NCBI RefSeq assembly: GCF_009932435.1
Contig: NZ_BJOU01000010.1
Coordinates: 1 to 16,710 of the forward strand
DNA: 16,710 nucleotides
Source of the DNA: Gordonia crocea
GTDB lineage: Bacteria > Actinomycetota > Actinomycetes > Mycobacteriales > Mycobacteriaceae
Reading direction: 5' to 3'
Shown here: one piece after another, positions 2,989-15,570 of the stretch
Numbering within the stretch: position 1 is the stretch's first letter
Layout: the number at the start of each line of letters is the position of its first letter
Notes under the pieces: model-generated
The model's input: only the letters and a program-made list of their open reading frames with translations
What the model was told of the DNA's origin: nothing
Database searches by the model: none
Translations under genes and position numbers: made by a program

Positions 2989-3014
2989 CGGCGCCGACAT
3001 CGAAGGCGGCGCCG
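2989..3014 (-). other. Hairpin upstream of fdxA
   Basis: Two copies of the self-complementary octamer CGGCGCCG (2989-2996 and 3007-3014) are separated by 10 bases, giving an 8-bp GC-only stem. It lies between the fbiC stop and the fdxA ribosome binding site. It could terminate fbiC transcripts, stabilise the fdxA message, or do nothing, since GC-rich palindromes are common here. There is no U-tract. Confidence 0.3.
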
Positions 3015-8918: not shown

Positions 8919-10844
<1,926 letters not shown>

Positions 10845-10949: not shown

Positions 10950-11008
10950 TCGTCGGCGTGTGGTGAGACCCCGCTCACGTCGGGACCATCGGCCTCCGAC
11001 TGCCTTGA

Positions 11009-11027
11009 TAAGGTTTACCTAGGCTAA
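11009..11027 (+). promoter_or_regulatory. Candidate DtxR/IdeR iron box
   Basis: TAAGGTTTACCTAGGCTAA matches the degenerate DtxR/IdeR consensus TWAGGTWAGSCTWACCTWA at 15 of 19 positions, counted by eye. The left half is nearly perfect. The mismatches are at positions 8, 9, 14 and 15. It overlaps the -10 region of the 59-residue gene that follows, the classic place for repression by iron-loaded IdeR. It is about 80 bases upstream of the typA -10 on the other strand, so typA is a less likely target. Confidence 0.6.
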
Positions 11028-11030
11028 AAT
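11025..11030 (+). promoter_or_regulatory. Putative -10 of the mini-gene (leaderless)
   Basis: TAAAAT is a near-consensus -10 hexamer that ends seven bases before the GTG at 11038, so transcription would begin at or one base before the start codon. No ribosome binding site is seen in CCTTGAC before the GTG, which agrees with a leaderless mRNA. TTGATA (11005-11010) could be a -35, but the 14-base spacer is short. An unusual spacer, or no -35 at all, is possible. Confidence 0.5.
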
Positions 11031-11037
11031 CCTTGAC

Positions 11038-11217
11038 GTGGGCAGTAAGAAAAGCGCGGCCAAGGTGCGCCACCTCAAGCCGAAGAAGAAGTGCTGCCGC
11101 AAAGACGTCCGCTGCCTGCGCTGCCCGGTCGTGGTCCACCGCCTCAACAAGCTCGACCTCGACTCGATGAATCGCAAAAAGCTCGACAAGGCCATCAAAA
11201 AGGCCCGGGTCGCCTGA
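11038..11217 (+). CDS. 59-residue basic Cys-containing protein of unknown function
   Basis: A small ORF starts at GTG 11038 and encodes 59 residues. I do not recognise a named family. The N-terminal half is very basic (GSKKSAAKVRHLKPKKKCC). The cysteines are Cys19, Cys20, Cys26 and Cys29, followed by His35 (CC-x5-C-x2-C-x5-H). That pattern could bind a metal ion or an iron-sulfur cluster. The C-terminal half looks helical and lysine-rich (LDLDSMNRKKLDKAIKKA). It has no signal peptide or membrane segment, so a cytosolic nucleic-acid- or metal-binding role fits best. A strong -10 and a candidate iron box lie directly upstream. Regulation by iron through a DtxR/IdeR repressor is inferred from that. 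Its last 23 bases overlap the 3' end of the convergent Nudix gene. Coding status is supported by the promoter, the organised composition and an uninterrupted frame. Confidence 0.72.
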   Translation: MGSKKSAAKVRHLKPKKKCCRKDVRCLRCPVVVHRLNKLDLDSMNRKKLDKAIKKARVA

Positions 11218-11617
11218 GCAGGTCGACCAACTCGCGAACCCACCCGACGTCGGCGGGGACCATTTCACCGCTGTCCGCCAACCGCACCACCTCGGCGTCG
11301 TCGAACCACCCGAGCGCCCGGTGCTCGACCGCCACCGGTTCCCCGGCTACCCACCGCGCGCGGTAGGCGCGCAGTTCGAGGTCATCCCCCACGGGCACCG
11401 CGTCGCCGATCCGGTCACCGCCGACCACCTCGATCTCCAGTTCCTCGCGCAGTTCGCGTTCCAGTGCCTGCGCCGGCGACTCGCCCTCCTCGACTTTGCC
11501 GCCGGGCAATTCCCACAGCCCGGCCAGGTGCGGCGGATAGGCCCGCTGGGCCAGTAGCACCCGGTTCGCCCCGCCCCACTCCCGGATGACCGCCCCGGCC
11601 ACGACGATGCGGACCAT
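11195..11617 (-). CDS. Nudix hydrolase, MutT2-like
   Basis: This 140-residue protein carries a nearly complete Nudix box: Gly40-x5-Glu46-x7-Arg54-Glu55-Leu56-x-Glu58-Glu59-x-Glu61-Ile62. Only the penultimate glycine is replaced, by Glu61, which is tolerated in the family. Glu55, Glu58 and Glu59 would bind the magnesium. WELPGGK before the box and ALGWFDDAEV near the C-terminus are typical of MutT-type nucleotide pyrophosphatases. The size and region fit M. tuberculosis MutT2, a (d)CTP / 5-methyl-dCTP / 8-oxo-dGTP hydrolase. Its ATG (11617) shares one base with the stop of the upstream ABC ATPase (TGATG), so it is the fourth gene of the transporter operon. That linkage allows another substrate, such as a thiamine-related pyrophosphate. 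The substrate cannot be read from sequence. Confidence 0.9.
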   Translation of the reverse strand: MVRIVVAGAVIREWGGANRVLLAQRAYPPHLAGLWELPGGKVEEGESPAQALERELREELEIEVVGGDRIGDAVPVGDDLELRAYRARWVAGEPVAVEHRALGWFDDAEVVRLADSGEMVPADVGWVRELVDLLRRPGPF

Positions 11618-12696
11618 CAGTCGCCCCGCCCGGTCACGATGCCGGTGCGGGCCCCGACGAGGCGGACGGTTATCCGGTCTCCCGGCCGCGGCGGGGGTGT
11701 GTCGTCGTCGGCGAGGGCGCCGAGCTCGGCCACCGGCGTGTTCAGCGCCGAACCGTCGAGGATGACCTGGGTCCGCTCGGGCAACTCGCGCACCCGCAGC
11801 ACCGGCAGGGCGACCGTGCCGCCGGGTCCAGCACCGACGGGGCGGGCGCGCAGCGACTCGGCCCGGATGGCGACCGCGCCGACCGGGTCGTCGGCGCCGA
11901 TCCCGAGTTGTCGGGTCGGCAGATCACCCAACTCGGTGCGCACCACGTCGCCGATCCGCTCGGCGGCCAACAGGTTTTCCCACCCGAGGAAGTGTGCCGT
12001 CCACTCGTCGGGCGGGTACCGCCAGACGCGGGCGGCGAGGTCGGCGGCGACGACGCCACCGTCGCGCATGACGATGACGGTGTCGCCCATCGTCGCGGCC
12101 TCGTCGTGGTCATGGGTGACGACGATCGTCGGGGTGGCAGTGGCCTCGACGATGCCGACGATGTCGTCGGCCAGCTTGCCGCGCAGGTGGGCGTCGAGAG
12201 CGGCGAGCGGCTCGTCGAGCAGGAGGAGACGGGGCCGCGGTGCCAATGCGCGGGCCAGCGCCACCCGTTGCGCCTGGCCACCGGACAGGTCGTCGACGCG
12301 GCGGCGGGCCATCCCGGGCAGCCGGACCAGGTCGAGCATTTGCGCGACGCGATCGGCGATCTGCTCGCGCGGCCACCTTCGGGCGCGCAGTCCATAGGCG
12401 ATGTTCGCCGCCACCGAGCGGCCCGGGAACAACTGGGCGTCCTGGAACACCATGCCGAAGTCCCGCCGATGCGGCGGGACCGCCGCCAGGTCCTGCCCGT
12501 CGAAGGCGATGGTGCCCGACGCCAGCGGGACCAGACCGGCCACCGCGCGCAACAACGTCGACTTGCCACATCCCGACGGCCCGAGGATCGCCGTCACCGG
12601 ACCCGCCGGCGGCGCCGTCGCGAGGGTCAGCGACACGTCGCGCACCACCCGCGCGTCGCCGTAGTCGACCGCGACCGAATCCACCACGAGCGTCAT
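11617..12696 (-). CDS. thiQ: ABC transporter ATP-binding protein (thiamine type)
   Basis: This 359-residue ATPase energises the adjacent permease. The motifs are intact: Walker A GPSGCGKS at 39-46, Q-loop Gln85, signature LSGGQ at 137-141, Walker B LLLLDEP with Asp161 and catalytic Glu162, and the switch His195 in VVTHDHDEA. After about residue 230 a C-terminal extension with a beta-rich, TOBE-like composition follows. This makes it longer than enteric ThiQ (about 230 residues) and more like the spermidine/iron-type ATPases. ATG 12696 is the start. It overlaps the permease stop by four bases (ATGA). Assignment to thiamine rests on the substrate-binding protein of the operon. On its own it could be called a generic CUT1/PotA-like ATPase. 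Confidence 0.9.
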   Translation of the reverse strand: MTLVVDSVAVDYGDARVVRDVSLTLATAPPAGPVTAILGPSGCGKSTLLRAVAGLVPLASGTIAFDGQDLAAVPPHRRDFGMVFQDAQLFPGRSVAANIAYGLRARRWPREQIADRVAQMLDLVRLPGMARRRVDDLSGGQAQRVALARALAPRPRLLLLDEPLAALDAHLRGKLADDIVGIVEATATPTIVVTHDHDEAATMGDTVIVMRDGGVVAADLAARVWRYPPDEWTAHFLGWENLLAAERIGDVVRTELGDLPTRQLGIGADDPVGAVAIRAESLRARPVGAGPGGTVALPVLRVRELPERTQVILDGSALNTPVAELGALADDDTPPPRPGDRITVRLVGARTGIVTGRGD

Positions 12697-14375
12697 AGCA
12701 GTGCACCCGCGTTCGGCCGGACGGCCTCGACGATCCCGACCGCGACCGCTGTGACGACGACCAGCACCATCGAGCAGGCCATCGCCGCGGCGAGGTTCGC
12801 CTCGCCGGGGCGGTTCAAGGCGGTGCCGATCATCACCGGGAGGGTGGTGGTGTCGACCCGGGCCAGGAAGCTGGTCGCGCCGAACTCGCCCAGACTCAAG
12901 ATGAAGGCGAAACCCGCGGCAACCGCGAACGACCGTCTCACCAGGGGCAGTTCCACCGTGCTGAAGACCCGCAGCGGCCGGGCGCCCAGGGTCGCCGCCG
13001 CCGTGGTCAGGCCGGCCGGGACCTGTTCCAGGGCCGGCACCGCGATCCGGATCACCAGCGGCACGGCGACCAGTGCCTGGACCGCGGCGATCACCCACCA
13101 CGAGTTGGCCAGCGCGCTCGGCCACCCGGCGAACACCAGCGTGTAGCCGAATCCGAGGGTGACCGCGCTGACGCCCAGCGGGATCGTCGCGATCAGTTCG
13201 CCGACTTCGCGCAGCGGGCCGCGCAGCCGGGCGACCACGATCGCGGCGGCCAGCCCGAACACCACGGCCAGGACCGCGGCGACCACCGCGGTGCGCAGTG
13301 ACATCGCTGCCGACGCGAGCGGCGTCATGCCGTTGACCTCGGCACCCAGCGCGCGGTACCCGGCCAGGGTCCAACTCCCCGGCCCCGCCGGGCGCACCGA
13401 CCAGAGGGCCAAGACGACAAGGGGCACCACCAACCACAGTGCCGCCCACAGCGCGGTGAGCACCCCGGCGATCCGGGTCCACCCGCGGACCGGGATCGGC
13501 GACTGCTCGATGGCCCGGTTCCCCGGCACCCGGCGAGAGAGCAGTCGCACGACGGCCAGAGTCGCCACCACCACGCCGATCTGCAGCACCGACAGCGCCG
13601 CCGCCTCCGGCAGGTGGAAGGATCCGACGCCCTCCGTGTAGATGGCGGTCTCGACCGTGTGCAGCTGCCCGTTGCCGAGCACCATGATCACCCCGTAACT
13701 CGTCGTGCAGAACAAGAAGACCAGGGCCGCCGCCGCCGCGATCGCGGGCAGCAGCCGGGGCAGGGTCACCGTCGTGAACGCCCGCACCGGTCCGGCACCG
13801 CTGACCTGGGCGGCCTGTTCGAGCCGCGGGTCCAGTCCGGACCAGGCCGCCGCGACCACGCGCACGACGACGGCCACGTTCAGGAAGACGTGGGCGCACA
13901 GCACCGGGACGAGGCTGGGACCGGCCTCGTCGAGCGCCCCGCCGAGCGCGGCCGGCAGGAAGGACAACGGTCCGGTGAACACCGCCCGAAAGGCCATCCC
14001 CACCACGACGCTCGGCAAGACGAAGGGCAGCGTGACCACCACCAGGAACAAGCGCGAGCCGGGAAACCGGACCCGGGCCACGAGCCAGGTGATCGGCGCC
14101 GCGACGATCAGCGTCAGGACCGTCGAGGCCGCCGCCTGGGCGAGGGTGAATACCAGCAGCGGGCCCGCCCCCGACCGTCGCCACAGGGTGAGGATCCCCG
14201 CACCGTCCCCCGTTCCCGCGGCGCGGTCGAACAGGGCGACCAGGGGCCAGCCGAAAAAGATCACGAGGAAGACGAGCGGAATCGCGCCCAGTAGTGCCAA
14301 TCCGAGGCCGGCGGTGGTGATCCTCGGGCGCCCCACACCGGTGACCAGCCCGATTCCCGGGCGACTGCGGGTCAC
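12693..14375 (-). CDS. thiP: ABC transporter permease with two fused membrane domains (ThiP-like)
   Basis: This 560-residue integral membrane protein is two binding-protein-dependent permease domains fused in tandem, as in ThiP and FbpB. About twelve hydrophobic segments are visible. Two EAA-type loops that dock the ATPase are present: EQAAQVSGAGPVRAFTTVTL near 186-205, and AATLGARPLRVFSTVELPLV near 460-479. The second half ends in SLGEFGATSFLARVDTTTLP, typical of ThiP/FbpB proteins. I chose GTG 14375 because it overlaps the stop of the binding-protein gene as GTGA. The frame remains open to 14456 inside that gene, but the added residues are hydrophilic. It can be told from an iron(III) permease only by its thiamine-like binding protein. 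Confidence 0.9.
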   Translation of the reverse strand: MTRSRPGIGLVTGVGRPRITTAGLGLALLGAIPLVFLVIFFGWPLVALFDRAAGTGDGAGILTLWRRSGAGPLLVFTLAQAAASTVLTLIVAAPITWLVARVRFPGSRLFLVVVTLPFVLPSVVVGMAFRAVFTGPLSFLPAALGGALDEAGPSLVPVLCAHVFLNVAVVVRVVAAAWSGLDPRLEQAAQVSGAGPVRAFTTVTLPRLLPAIAAAAALVFLFCTTSYGVIMVLGNGQLHTVETAIYTEGVGSFHLPEAAALSVLQIGVVVATLAVVRLLSRRVPGNRAIEQSPIPVRGWTRIAGVLTALWAALWLVVPLVVLALWSVRPAGPGSWTLAGYRALGAEVNGMTPLASAAMSLRTAVVAAVLAVVFGLAAAIVVARLRGPLREVGELIATIPLGVSAVTLGFGYTLVFAGWPSALANSWWVIAAVQALVAVPLVIRIAVPALEQVPAGLTTAAATLGARPLRVFSTVELPLVRRSFAVAAGFAFILSLGEFGATSFLARVDTTTLPVMIGTALNRPGEANLAAAMACSMVLVVVTAVAVGIVEAVRPNAGALL

Positions 14376-15415
14376 CGTCCCACTGCGTCGCGCCACTCTT
14401 GCAGCCACTTCTCCCGGTTCTTGGCGATGTAGCCCGGCGGCATGTTGACCGTCCACTCCGGCATCGGCGCGCGGGTCGACCAGCCGTCGGGAAGCGGGGT
14501 GTCACGCGTCACCGGGTAGACGAACATCGACGCCGGCAGTGCCTTCTGGACACTCGGACCGAGGAGGAAGTCGATCACTTTGCGCGCCCCGTCCACGTTG
14601 GCCGCCCCCTTGAGGATGCCCGCGTACTCGACCTGCCGGAAGCAGGTCTCCAGCAGCGCCTCGGTGCCCGGCGTCGCCACCGGCGACGAGGCGTAGGACA
14701 CGACGATCGGCTTGGACCCGCGGCCGGCACCCGCACTGAACAGCTGGTTGTAGGCGATCTCCCAGCCCGAGACGATGGTGGCACCGTTGGCGACCACCTT
14801 GCGCCAGTAGTCCTCCCACCCCCGCCGCTTCTGGCCGATCGTCGTCAATAGGAAGGAGATACCGGGCGAGGAGGTGCGCGGGTCGAGCAGTGCGGCCTGG
14901 TTGCGGTAGGCGGGCTTCGTCAGGTCGTCGAGGGATTGCGGCGGCTGGGCATCCCGGCGCTCGTACCATGACGAGTCGATGTTGAGGCAGACATCGCCGC
15001 GGCTGACCGCAGTCAGCAGGTCGGGCGCGGATTTCAGCGCATACTCGGATGCGCCGTTGGCCGCAGCCGGCGACACGTACGGCATGAGGGCCCCGGCTTC
15101 GATGGGGCGGGCGGCGAAGGTGTTGTCGATGCCGTAGACCAGGTCGCCCTTGGGTGACCCCGGGGTCAGCGAGATCTGCGACGCGATCTTCCCCGAGTCG
15201 CCGGACTTGGCGATCTTGAGGGTGATGCCGGTGGCGGCGTGGAACTCGTCGATGACCGACGAGGGCAGGTCGAAGGAGTCGTAGACGAGCATCGTGACGC
15301 TGCCGCGGTCGTCGGATCCGCCGCAGCCGACCACGCCGACGGCCACCGCCGCGGCCAGGAAAGCACTACCGATCCGACGGGTCGACGACGCCGCCGCGAA
15401 GTGTCCGATTCGCAT
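14372..15415 (-). CDS. thiB: Thiamine-type ABC transporter substrate-binding lipoprotein
   Basis: This is a 347-residue exported lipoprotein. A basic N-terminus and hydrophobic stretch end in the lipobox VVGC with Cys31. The mature protein follows the ThiB layout: TMLVYDSFDLPSS at 41-53, GDLVYGIDNTFAARPIEAG at 90-108, LDDLTKPAYRNQAALLDPRT at 162-181 leading into SSPGISFLLTTIG, DYWRKVVANGATIVSGWEIAY at 202-222 and VVSYASSPVATPG at 238-250. It ends with the pattern VYPVTRDTPLPDGW. It would capture thiamine, or a phosphate ester, outside the membrane for the ThiP/ThiQ machine. ATG 15415 starts a normal lipoprotein signal. The longer open frame to 15535 adds a non-signal stretch. Its ribosome binding site is weak. 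I found no TPP riboswitch core in the upstream 227 bp. Confidence 0.88.
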   Translation of the reverse strand: MRIGHFAAASSTRRIGSAFLAAAVAVGVVGCGGSDDRGSVTMLVYDSFDLPSSVIDEFHAATGITLKIAKSGDSGKIASQISLTPGSPKGDLVYGIDNTFAARPIEAGALMPYVSPAAANGASEYALKSAPDLLTAVSRGDVCLNIDSSWYERRDAQPPQSLDDLTKPAYRNQAALLDPRTSSPGISFLLTTIGQKRRGWEDYWRKVVANGATIVSGWEIAYNQLFSAGAGRGSKPIVVSYASSPVATPGTEALLETCFRQVEYAGILKGAANVDGARKVIDFLLGPSVQKALPASMFVYPVTRDTPLPDGWSTRAPMPEWTVNMPPGYIAKNREKWLQEWRDAVGR

Positions 15416-15500
15416 GGCTCGATCTAACCACCAGGCGTCGGCGCCGACCCCTGCGATGGGCCCGACCAATGCCCGAGACGGTGAACGAGCCGGAAACCAG

Positions 15501-15528
15501 ACAGTAACAATTGAATCACCAGCCACAA
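15501..15528 (-). promoter_or_regulatory. Putative promoter of the thiB operon
   Basis: On the minus strand TTGTGG (15523-15528), a 16-base spacer and TACTGT (15501-15506) form a plausible -35/-10 pair. Transcription would start near 15494, giving a leader of about 79 bases before ATG 15415. The rest of the 227-bp gap (15416-15642) shows no aptamer-like structure. Confidence 0.33.
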
Positions 15529-15570
15529 TAGCCACATGCTCCAGGGGTTATGGTGCTGGCTGCGGACGCG

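Follow-up and report, generated by a model that had tools for sequence, protein, structure and literature searches.

The window analysed here (the whole stretch of DNA, 16,710 nucleotides, which is one whole contig of a Gordonia-like genome) carries on its plus strand a mini-gene (11038-11217, with a GTG start at 11038 and a TGA stop at 11215-11217) for a 59-aa basic protein containing CC-x5-C-x2-CP, and a predicted IdeR/DtxR-type operator (TAAGGTTTACCTAGGCTAA, 11009-11027, plus strand) overlaps its -10 element. What could such a mini-protein do under the control of an iron regulator? The best explanation as a whole, to which we assign a probability of about 0.45, is that the mini-gene is leaderless and IdeR-repressed and that its product would be a metal-binding accessory in the storage of iron by ferritin. 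Sequence comparisons support the box, the leaderless promoter, the protein family and the ferritin adjacency in relatives. The observation behind the preliminary description of this locus is confirmed, and its interpretation is partly supported overall.

The mini-protein and its predicted leaderless start

With a pI of 10.7 and 21 K+R as compared to 4 D+E residues, the mini-protein is very basic, and its Cys/His pattern is CC-x5-C-x2-C-x4-H. The preliminary description had read x5 before the histidine, which miscounts the spacing, and the histidine itself is not conserved (107 of the 180 listed homologues); the four cysteines stood, CC-x5-C-x2-CP being kept in 180/180 of these homologues, which were chosen by shared words and profile score in a way that favours the Cys core. 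Their median pI is 10.65. For alignments A3 and A4 the loci were picked by Cys pattern, so the Cys conservation seen in them is biased.

Homologues, for which the preliminary description had proposed a search, are found in 34 of the 37 genomes of the genus (34/61 relatives in all), which rules out a chance ORF, as well as in 126/397 genomes of the same order, 77/394 genomes of the class (own order included), 144/293 genomes of another order of the same class and 18/396 genomes drawn over the phylum. Profile searches collected 951 and 2898 proteins, and for the 120 top-ranking proteins of either search, the annotations shown read 'hypothetical' or 'uncharacterized'. Searches of the mini-protein and its homologues against Pfam, NCBIfam and PDB sequences gave zero relatives above a cut-off, and calling it an unusual regulon member, as was done earlier, is fair; among the matches listed from open-licence literature (typA with IdeR, and small DtxR/IdeR/iron proteins), none names the family. 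Judging from these comparisons, the mini-protein represents a real, widespread and conserved four-cysteine family. An apparent duplicate of the gene (C11:81-257) was set aside as most likely assembly redundancy between contigs C10 and C11: C11:1-3000 (L022) is identical to window positions 10958-13957 at 3000/3000 compared bases.

AlphaFold2 models from two alignments have pLDDT values of 80.5 and 77.7 and pTM values of 0.61 and 0.57. The predicted fold places a Cys loop (residues 12-29) between helices (7-11, 30-38 and 46-58), and the more distant alignment (pLDDT 77.7) gives the helices of the first model; a fold search with that first model returned 0 Foldseek matches and none from VIA-align. 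The cysteines resemble the EndIII/MutY iron-sulfur loop (PF10576) in C-x6-C-x2-C and in their P-R-C / C-P context, as seen in the genome's own MutY-type sequence, but the mini-protein lacks the fourth Cys and has an extra adjacent one. PF10576 matches just 1/39 and 1/32 homologues (E 0.0016) and does not match the window protein, and membership in the EndIII_4Fe-2S loop (C-x6-C-x2-C-x5-C) was rejected, with the first three Cys only being present. Since C-x6-C-x2-C stands without a fourth Cys, either an Fe-S or a zinc site is possible.

The -10 element TAAAAT (11025-11030, plus strand) ends seven bases before the GTG, as had been described, and TANNNT lies 4-8 nt before the start in 45/45 distinct Gordonia loci. 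By eye there is no Shine-Dalgarno-like run before the GTG, in agreement with the earlier claim that a ribosome binding site is missing, and no consensus -35 is visible because a strict sigma-70 promoter scan gave 0 hits at the mini-gene. In our set of distant loci (96 loci; 19 more were dropped, their core not being found by the filter), TANNNT ends 4-8 bases before the start in 73/96, as compared to 6/96 and 2/96 for shifted controls placed 24-28 and 44-48 bases upstream. The leaderless spacing is missing in Williamsia (0/9), Rhodococcus (0/5), Hoyosella (0/3), Lolliginicoccus (0/3) and the named mycobacteria (0/26), and occurs in only 1/12 loci of family f14. For the mini-gene itself, these patterns support a leaderless start.

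The iron box in the window and in relatives

We scored the box with a matrix built from 31 DtxR sites of C. glutamicum (PMC1382209), i.e. from iron-regulator sites; in that study, 30/31 of them were shifted in vitro and the cg1120 site was not. On recounting, TAAGGTTTACCTAGGCTAA matches the degenerate consensus TWAGGTWAGSCTWACCTWA at 15/19 positions (mismatches at 8, 9, 14 and 15), the figure given in the preliminary description, and the strict consensus TTAGGTTAGSCTAACCTAA at 14/19. The matrix score, which had been suggested as a check, is 21.1 bits and falls inside the range of the 31 published sites (12.0-27.1 bits). Among non-overlapping sites, the highest score in the 16.7-kb window is 5.6 bits, two registers that overlap the box reach 14.4 and 8.0 bits, and 4 Mb of first-order random sequence contained 0 sites at 21.1 bits. 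A box in the same register, at 19.7-19.9 bits, is found in loci L003/L038, L004 and L037.

The closer loci (own family) number 146 including repeated fetches, which reduce to 121 distinct upstream sequences, 119 of them with a choosable start codon. A box of at least 15 bits is present in 37/119 of these and in 58/96 distant loci. None of 1000 permuted palindromic matrices was as good on the closer loci (mean 0.5, maximum 16) and none of 500 on the distant loci (maximum 24), and shuffled promoters reached 15 bits in 9/5950 and 3/4800 cases, respectively. In an earlier and weaker rank test, the promoter held the best site of its locus in 66/119 loci; the mean with permuted matrices was 18.5, and 66 was attained once (the maximum of 300).

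By genus, boxes of at least 15 bits are found in Williamsia (9/9), Nocardia (3/3), Lolliginicoccus (3/3), Hoyosella (2/3), Tsukamurella (1/1) and Rhodococcoides (1/1), in 2/2 records with doubtful organism labels and in 8/17 loci of an unnamed order sample, and are missing in Rhodococcus (0/5), Mycobacterium (0/12), Mycolicibacterium (0/14), and Antrihabitans, Aldersonia, Smaragdicoccus and a Nocardiaceae MAG (0/1 each). In Gordonia, 8/45 loci reach at least 15 bits, 19 more have 10-15 bits and 18/45 stay below 10 bits, as do 4/5 Rhodococcus loci and 26/26 named Mycobacterium/Mycolicibacterium loci scored. By this measure the box is lost in the named mycobacterial loci scored and weak in Rhodococcus and much of Gordonia, so that the check proposed earlier, whether the box is conserved upstream of homologues, is positive for part of the closer and distant loci and negative for the mycobacterial ones.

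A single-dimer site, TTAGG-N4-SCTAA, lies over the -10 in Gordonia, exact in 22/45 loci and with at most one mismatch in 29/45; among the other spacings from 0 to 10, exact matches were seen only for N9 (3/45), which is the outer pair of the full box. With at most one mismatch, the site is also found in 23/45 loci from other genera of the same family and in 0/29 mycobacterial loci, and 9000 block shuffles gave 0 exact matches and 27 with at most one mismatch. The window box is the full-length form, and its half site carries two mismatches. In PMC8464063, a half site was shown to be bound by one IdeR dimer, and TTAGGNNNNCCTAA was proposed. The matrix score, the permuted-matrix controls, the N4 spacing and the distant loci rule out a chance box. 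Separately, in family f61 (L290-L294 and L267), boxes of 20.6-23.2 bits run into a putative leaderless -10 in 6/6 loci examined, with no ferritin or typA neighbour.

The genome encodes IdeR (L241, which matches NF053665 at 339.6 bits, cut-off 290); it encodes two DtxR-family proteins, and L242 scores best with MntR models, below their cut-offs. IdeR regulation of the mini-gene is well supported at the sequence level, and control of the predicted operator by IdeR appears very probable. Because the -10 is covered by the box here and in Gordonia, and directly follows it in the seven f41 loci inspected, iron-loaded IdeR should act as a repressor and not as an activator. The arrangement resembles the IdeR/DtxR/DmdR1 regulons in having an encoded IdeR and a 19-bp box that covers or adjoins the core promoter, and differs from them in that the mini-gene is leaderless and falls outside the uptake, siderophore, storage and known iron-enzyme genes.

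Neighbouring genes in the window and in distant loci

Divergent from the mini-gene in the window is typA (8919-10844, minus strand, start at 10844; TIGR01394 above cut-off), which encodes a translational GTPase. The same divergent upstream position is seen in 143/146 closer loci (the exceptions are two at a contig edge and L139) and, head-to-head, in 11/12 loci of family f14, 5 of those 11 having a box of at least 15 bits. In Mycobacteriales, the two genes stand head-to-head. Outside f14, typA is nearby in 0/84 distant loci, and the box stays where typA is absent, which rules out the box as typA's own. Between the two genes lies a palindrome, GTGAGACCCCGCTCAC (10963-10978), and a similar TGAGA-N5..7-TCAC is found upstream in 28/45 distinct Gordonia loci; we take the palindrome to be CRP/GlxR-like in look, perhaps serving typA. 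On the other side, a Nudix gene (11195-11617, minus strand) is convergent with the mini-gene, and the 3' ends of the two overlap by 23 bases (11195-11217). Frames of a thiamine/iron-type ABC transporter follow on the minus strand (11617-15535), including a substrate-binding protein (14372-15535, minus strand; TIGR01254 above cut-off).

In 42/96 distant loci, the core or stop codon has a ferritin gene no more than 209 bases away, divergent in 22 cases and on the same strand in the others (19 downstream and 1 upstream); the other 54/96 have no ferritin neighbour, and none is found in the window's own lineage. The linked loci come from seven families: f2 (2/2), f16 (2/2), f3 (1/1), f48 (1/3), f56 (1/3), f96 (1/2), and f41, whose 34/53 is not an unbiased rate since the order that was the source of most ferritin cases was chosen after the ferritin link had been seen. 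That one partner recurs in several arrangements speaks for more than a frozen gene order, with the caveat that f41 was enlarged after the link was seen. Boxes of at least 15 bits are present in 30/42 ferritin-linked loci and in 23/43 distant loci with neither ferritin nor typA. The three neighbouring ferritins that were scanned belong to PF00210 and score best with models of non-heme ferritins, whose cut-offs they do not reach; the remaining ones were called by tblastn. By eye, other distant homologues (L231, L240, L226, L235, L237 and L238) lie near mutB-like genes, amino-acid oxidase and DUF952-like genes, or polyphosphate glucokinase-like genes.

In the genome of the window, the ferritin L332 is 51-55% identical to three of the ferritins that neighbour distant homologues, and its locus has no box (best 1.4 bits); a second ferritin-like gene, L333, has a box of 15.6 bits in its locus. 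No stand-alone Bfd was found in this genome, which has only two Fer2_BFD matches, both in one 887-aa frame that we read as NirB-like.

Possible roles of the mini-protein

The ferritin adjacency in other actinobacterial families, which goes beyond the preliminary description, points to iron storage or release. We picture the mini-protein as a small, very basic protein whose four cysteines would bind metal, as an Fe-S cluster or zinc. Iron-loaded IdeR on the box over the -10 would block transcription; when iron falls, the block would lift and the leaderless mRNA would be translated from its first codon. The product would then act in iron storage, most likely as a ferritin accessory that draws iron out, or helps loading, when iron is short, and might work like Bfd, yet it is not a Bfd. 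That the protein has a part in storing or mobilising iron is about as likely as not, and an electron-donor, Bfd-like mechanism, proposed by analogy, is doubtful. The adjacency may also reflect shared control, not partnership. Pairs of mini-gene and ferritin gene on the same strand would be hard to account for by simple repression; according to PMC1382209, DtxR is also able to activate ftn.

The comparison with Bfd gives both likenesses and differences. Bfd has the Cys pattern C-x-C-x31-34-C-x2-C, which differs from the spacing CC-x5-C-x2-C kept in the listed homologues, and Pfam searches with 39 members (E<=0.1) and 32 members (E<=1) gave no match to Fer2_BFD (PF04324); with both the profile and the Cys pattern failing, membership in Bfd was rejected. 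The three neighbouring ferritins scanned also look non-heme, and no ferritin lies beside the window gene. The likeness lies in a small cysteine protein beside an iron-storage gene (for the mini-gene, in some relatives), an iron-regulator box and an expected use when stored iron is needed: in S. coelicolor, SCO2114 (Bfd) neighbours SCO2113 and has a putative DmdR1 site (PMC12161575), and Pseudomonas Bfd mobilises stored iron (PMC7760384).

One alternative, which we consider possible though on the unlikely side, is an IdeR-derepressed, iron-sparing small basic RNA- or ribosome-binder that would work with an sRNA in the manner of FbpA/FbpB/FbpC, or with TypA, and carry structural zinc on its four cysteines. 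The size and pI of the mini-protein fit this, its gene stands head-to-head with that of a ribosomal GTPase in nearly all closer and f14 loci, and the B. subtilis Fbp proteins are very small, basic and under an iron repressor, Fur (PMC12871923), a likeness drawn without sequence comparison. However, typA is not near the mini-gene in the distant loci outside f14, yet the box stays; the ferritin adjacency is left unexplained; and the mini-protein differs from FbpA/FbpB/FbpC in its invariant Cys4 core, in IdeR taking the place of Fur, and in having no known sRNA partner.

The four invariant cysteines, the C-x6-C-x2-C shared with the EndIII/MutY loop and the boxes at distant loci with neither ferritin nor typA would also suit a metal buffer or cluster handler (metallothionein-like, or a small Fe-S carrier) that serves the iron-starved cell with no specific partner. 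Such a role seems quite improbable given the repeated ferritin adjacency, and the protein has just four cysteines and strongly basic tails. As for the regulator, the box could be read by the second DtxR-family protein (MntR-like, for manganese), or by neither, the match then coming from an AT-rich -10, and it is true that L242 leans towards the MntR models and that in Gordonia the box shares the bases of its right half with the -10. Yet the left half, TTAGG, stands at a fixed N4 independent of the -10, permuted matrices and shuffles fail, the box is upstream of the -10 in the seven f41 loci inspected, and the matrix derives from iron-regulator sites, all of which make this very improbable.

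The ferritin-accessory reading can be taken one step further, to a new Actinomycetota-wide ferritin-partner family unrelated to Bfd, in which an IdeR-repressed Cys4 mini-protein would empty non-heme ferritin on iron starvation by supplying electrons or binding iron; this extension is tentative and, on balance, unlikely. The release of iron from non-heme ferritin is less well understood than that by the Bfr-Bfd route, and the family, if real in this role, would fill a gap in lineages that have non-heme ferritins but no stand-alone Bfd. The candidate combines an iron-sensor box, invariant cysteines and repeated ferritin adjacency, and is easy to make. It would add to the actinobacterial iron regulon a conserved gene that is a 'hypothetical protein' in the records seen.

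Other putative iron boxes in this genome were located with the consensus at no more than 3 mismatches, which gave 11 places (matrix scores of 18.0-25.1 bits) and none with the reversed control; the window site is not among the 11 because it has 4 mismatches, but its 21.1 bits fall inside their range of scores. Some of these hits adjoin genes for siderophore-interacting proteins (L147 and L157) or an acyl carrier protein (L148), and L155 and L157 are one sequence repeated on two contigs. At L150 and L153, consensus iron boxes precede short secreted proteins with no Pfam or NCBIfam match that look haemophore-like by eye.
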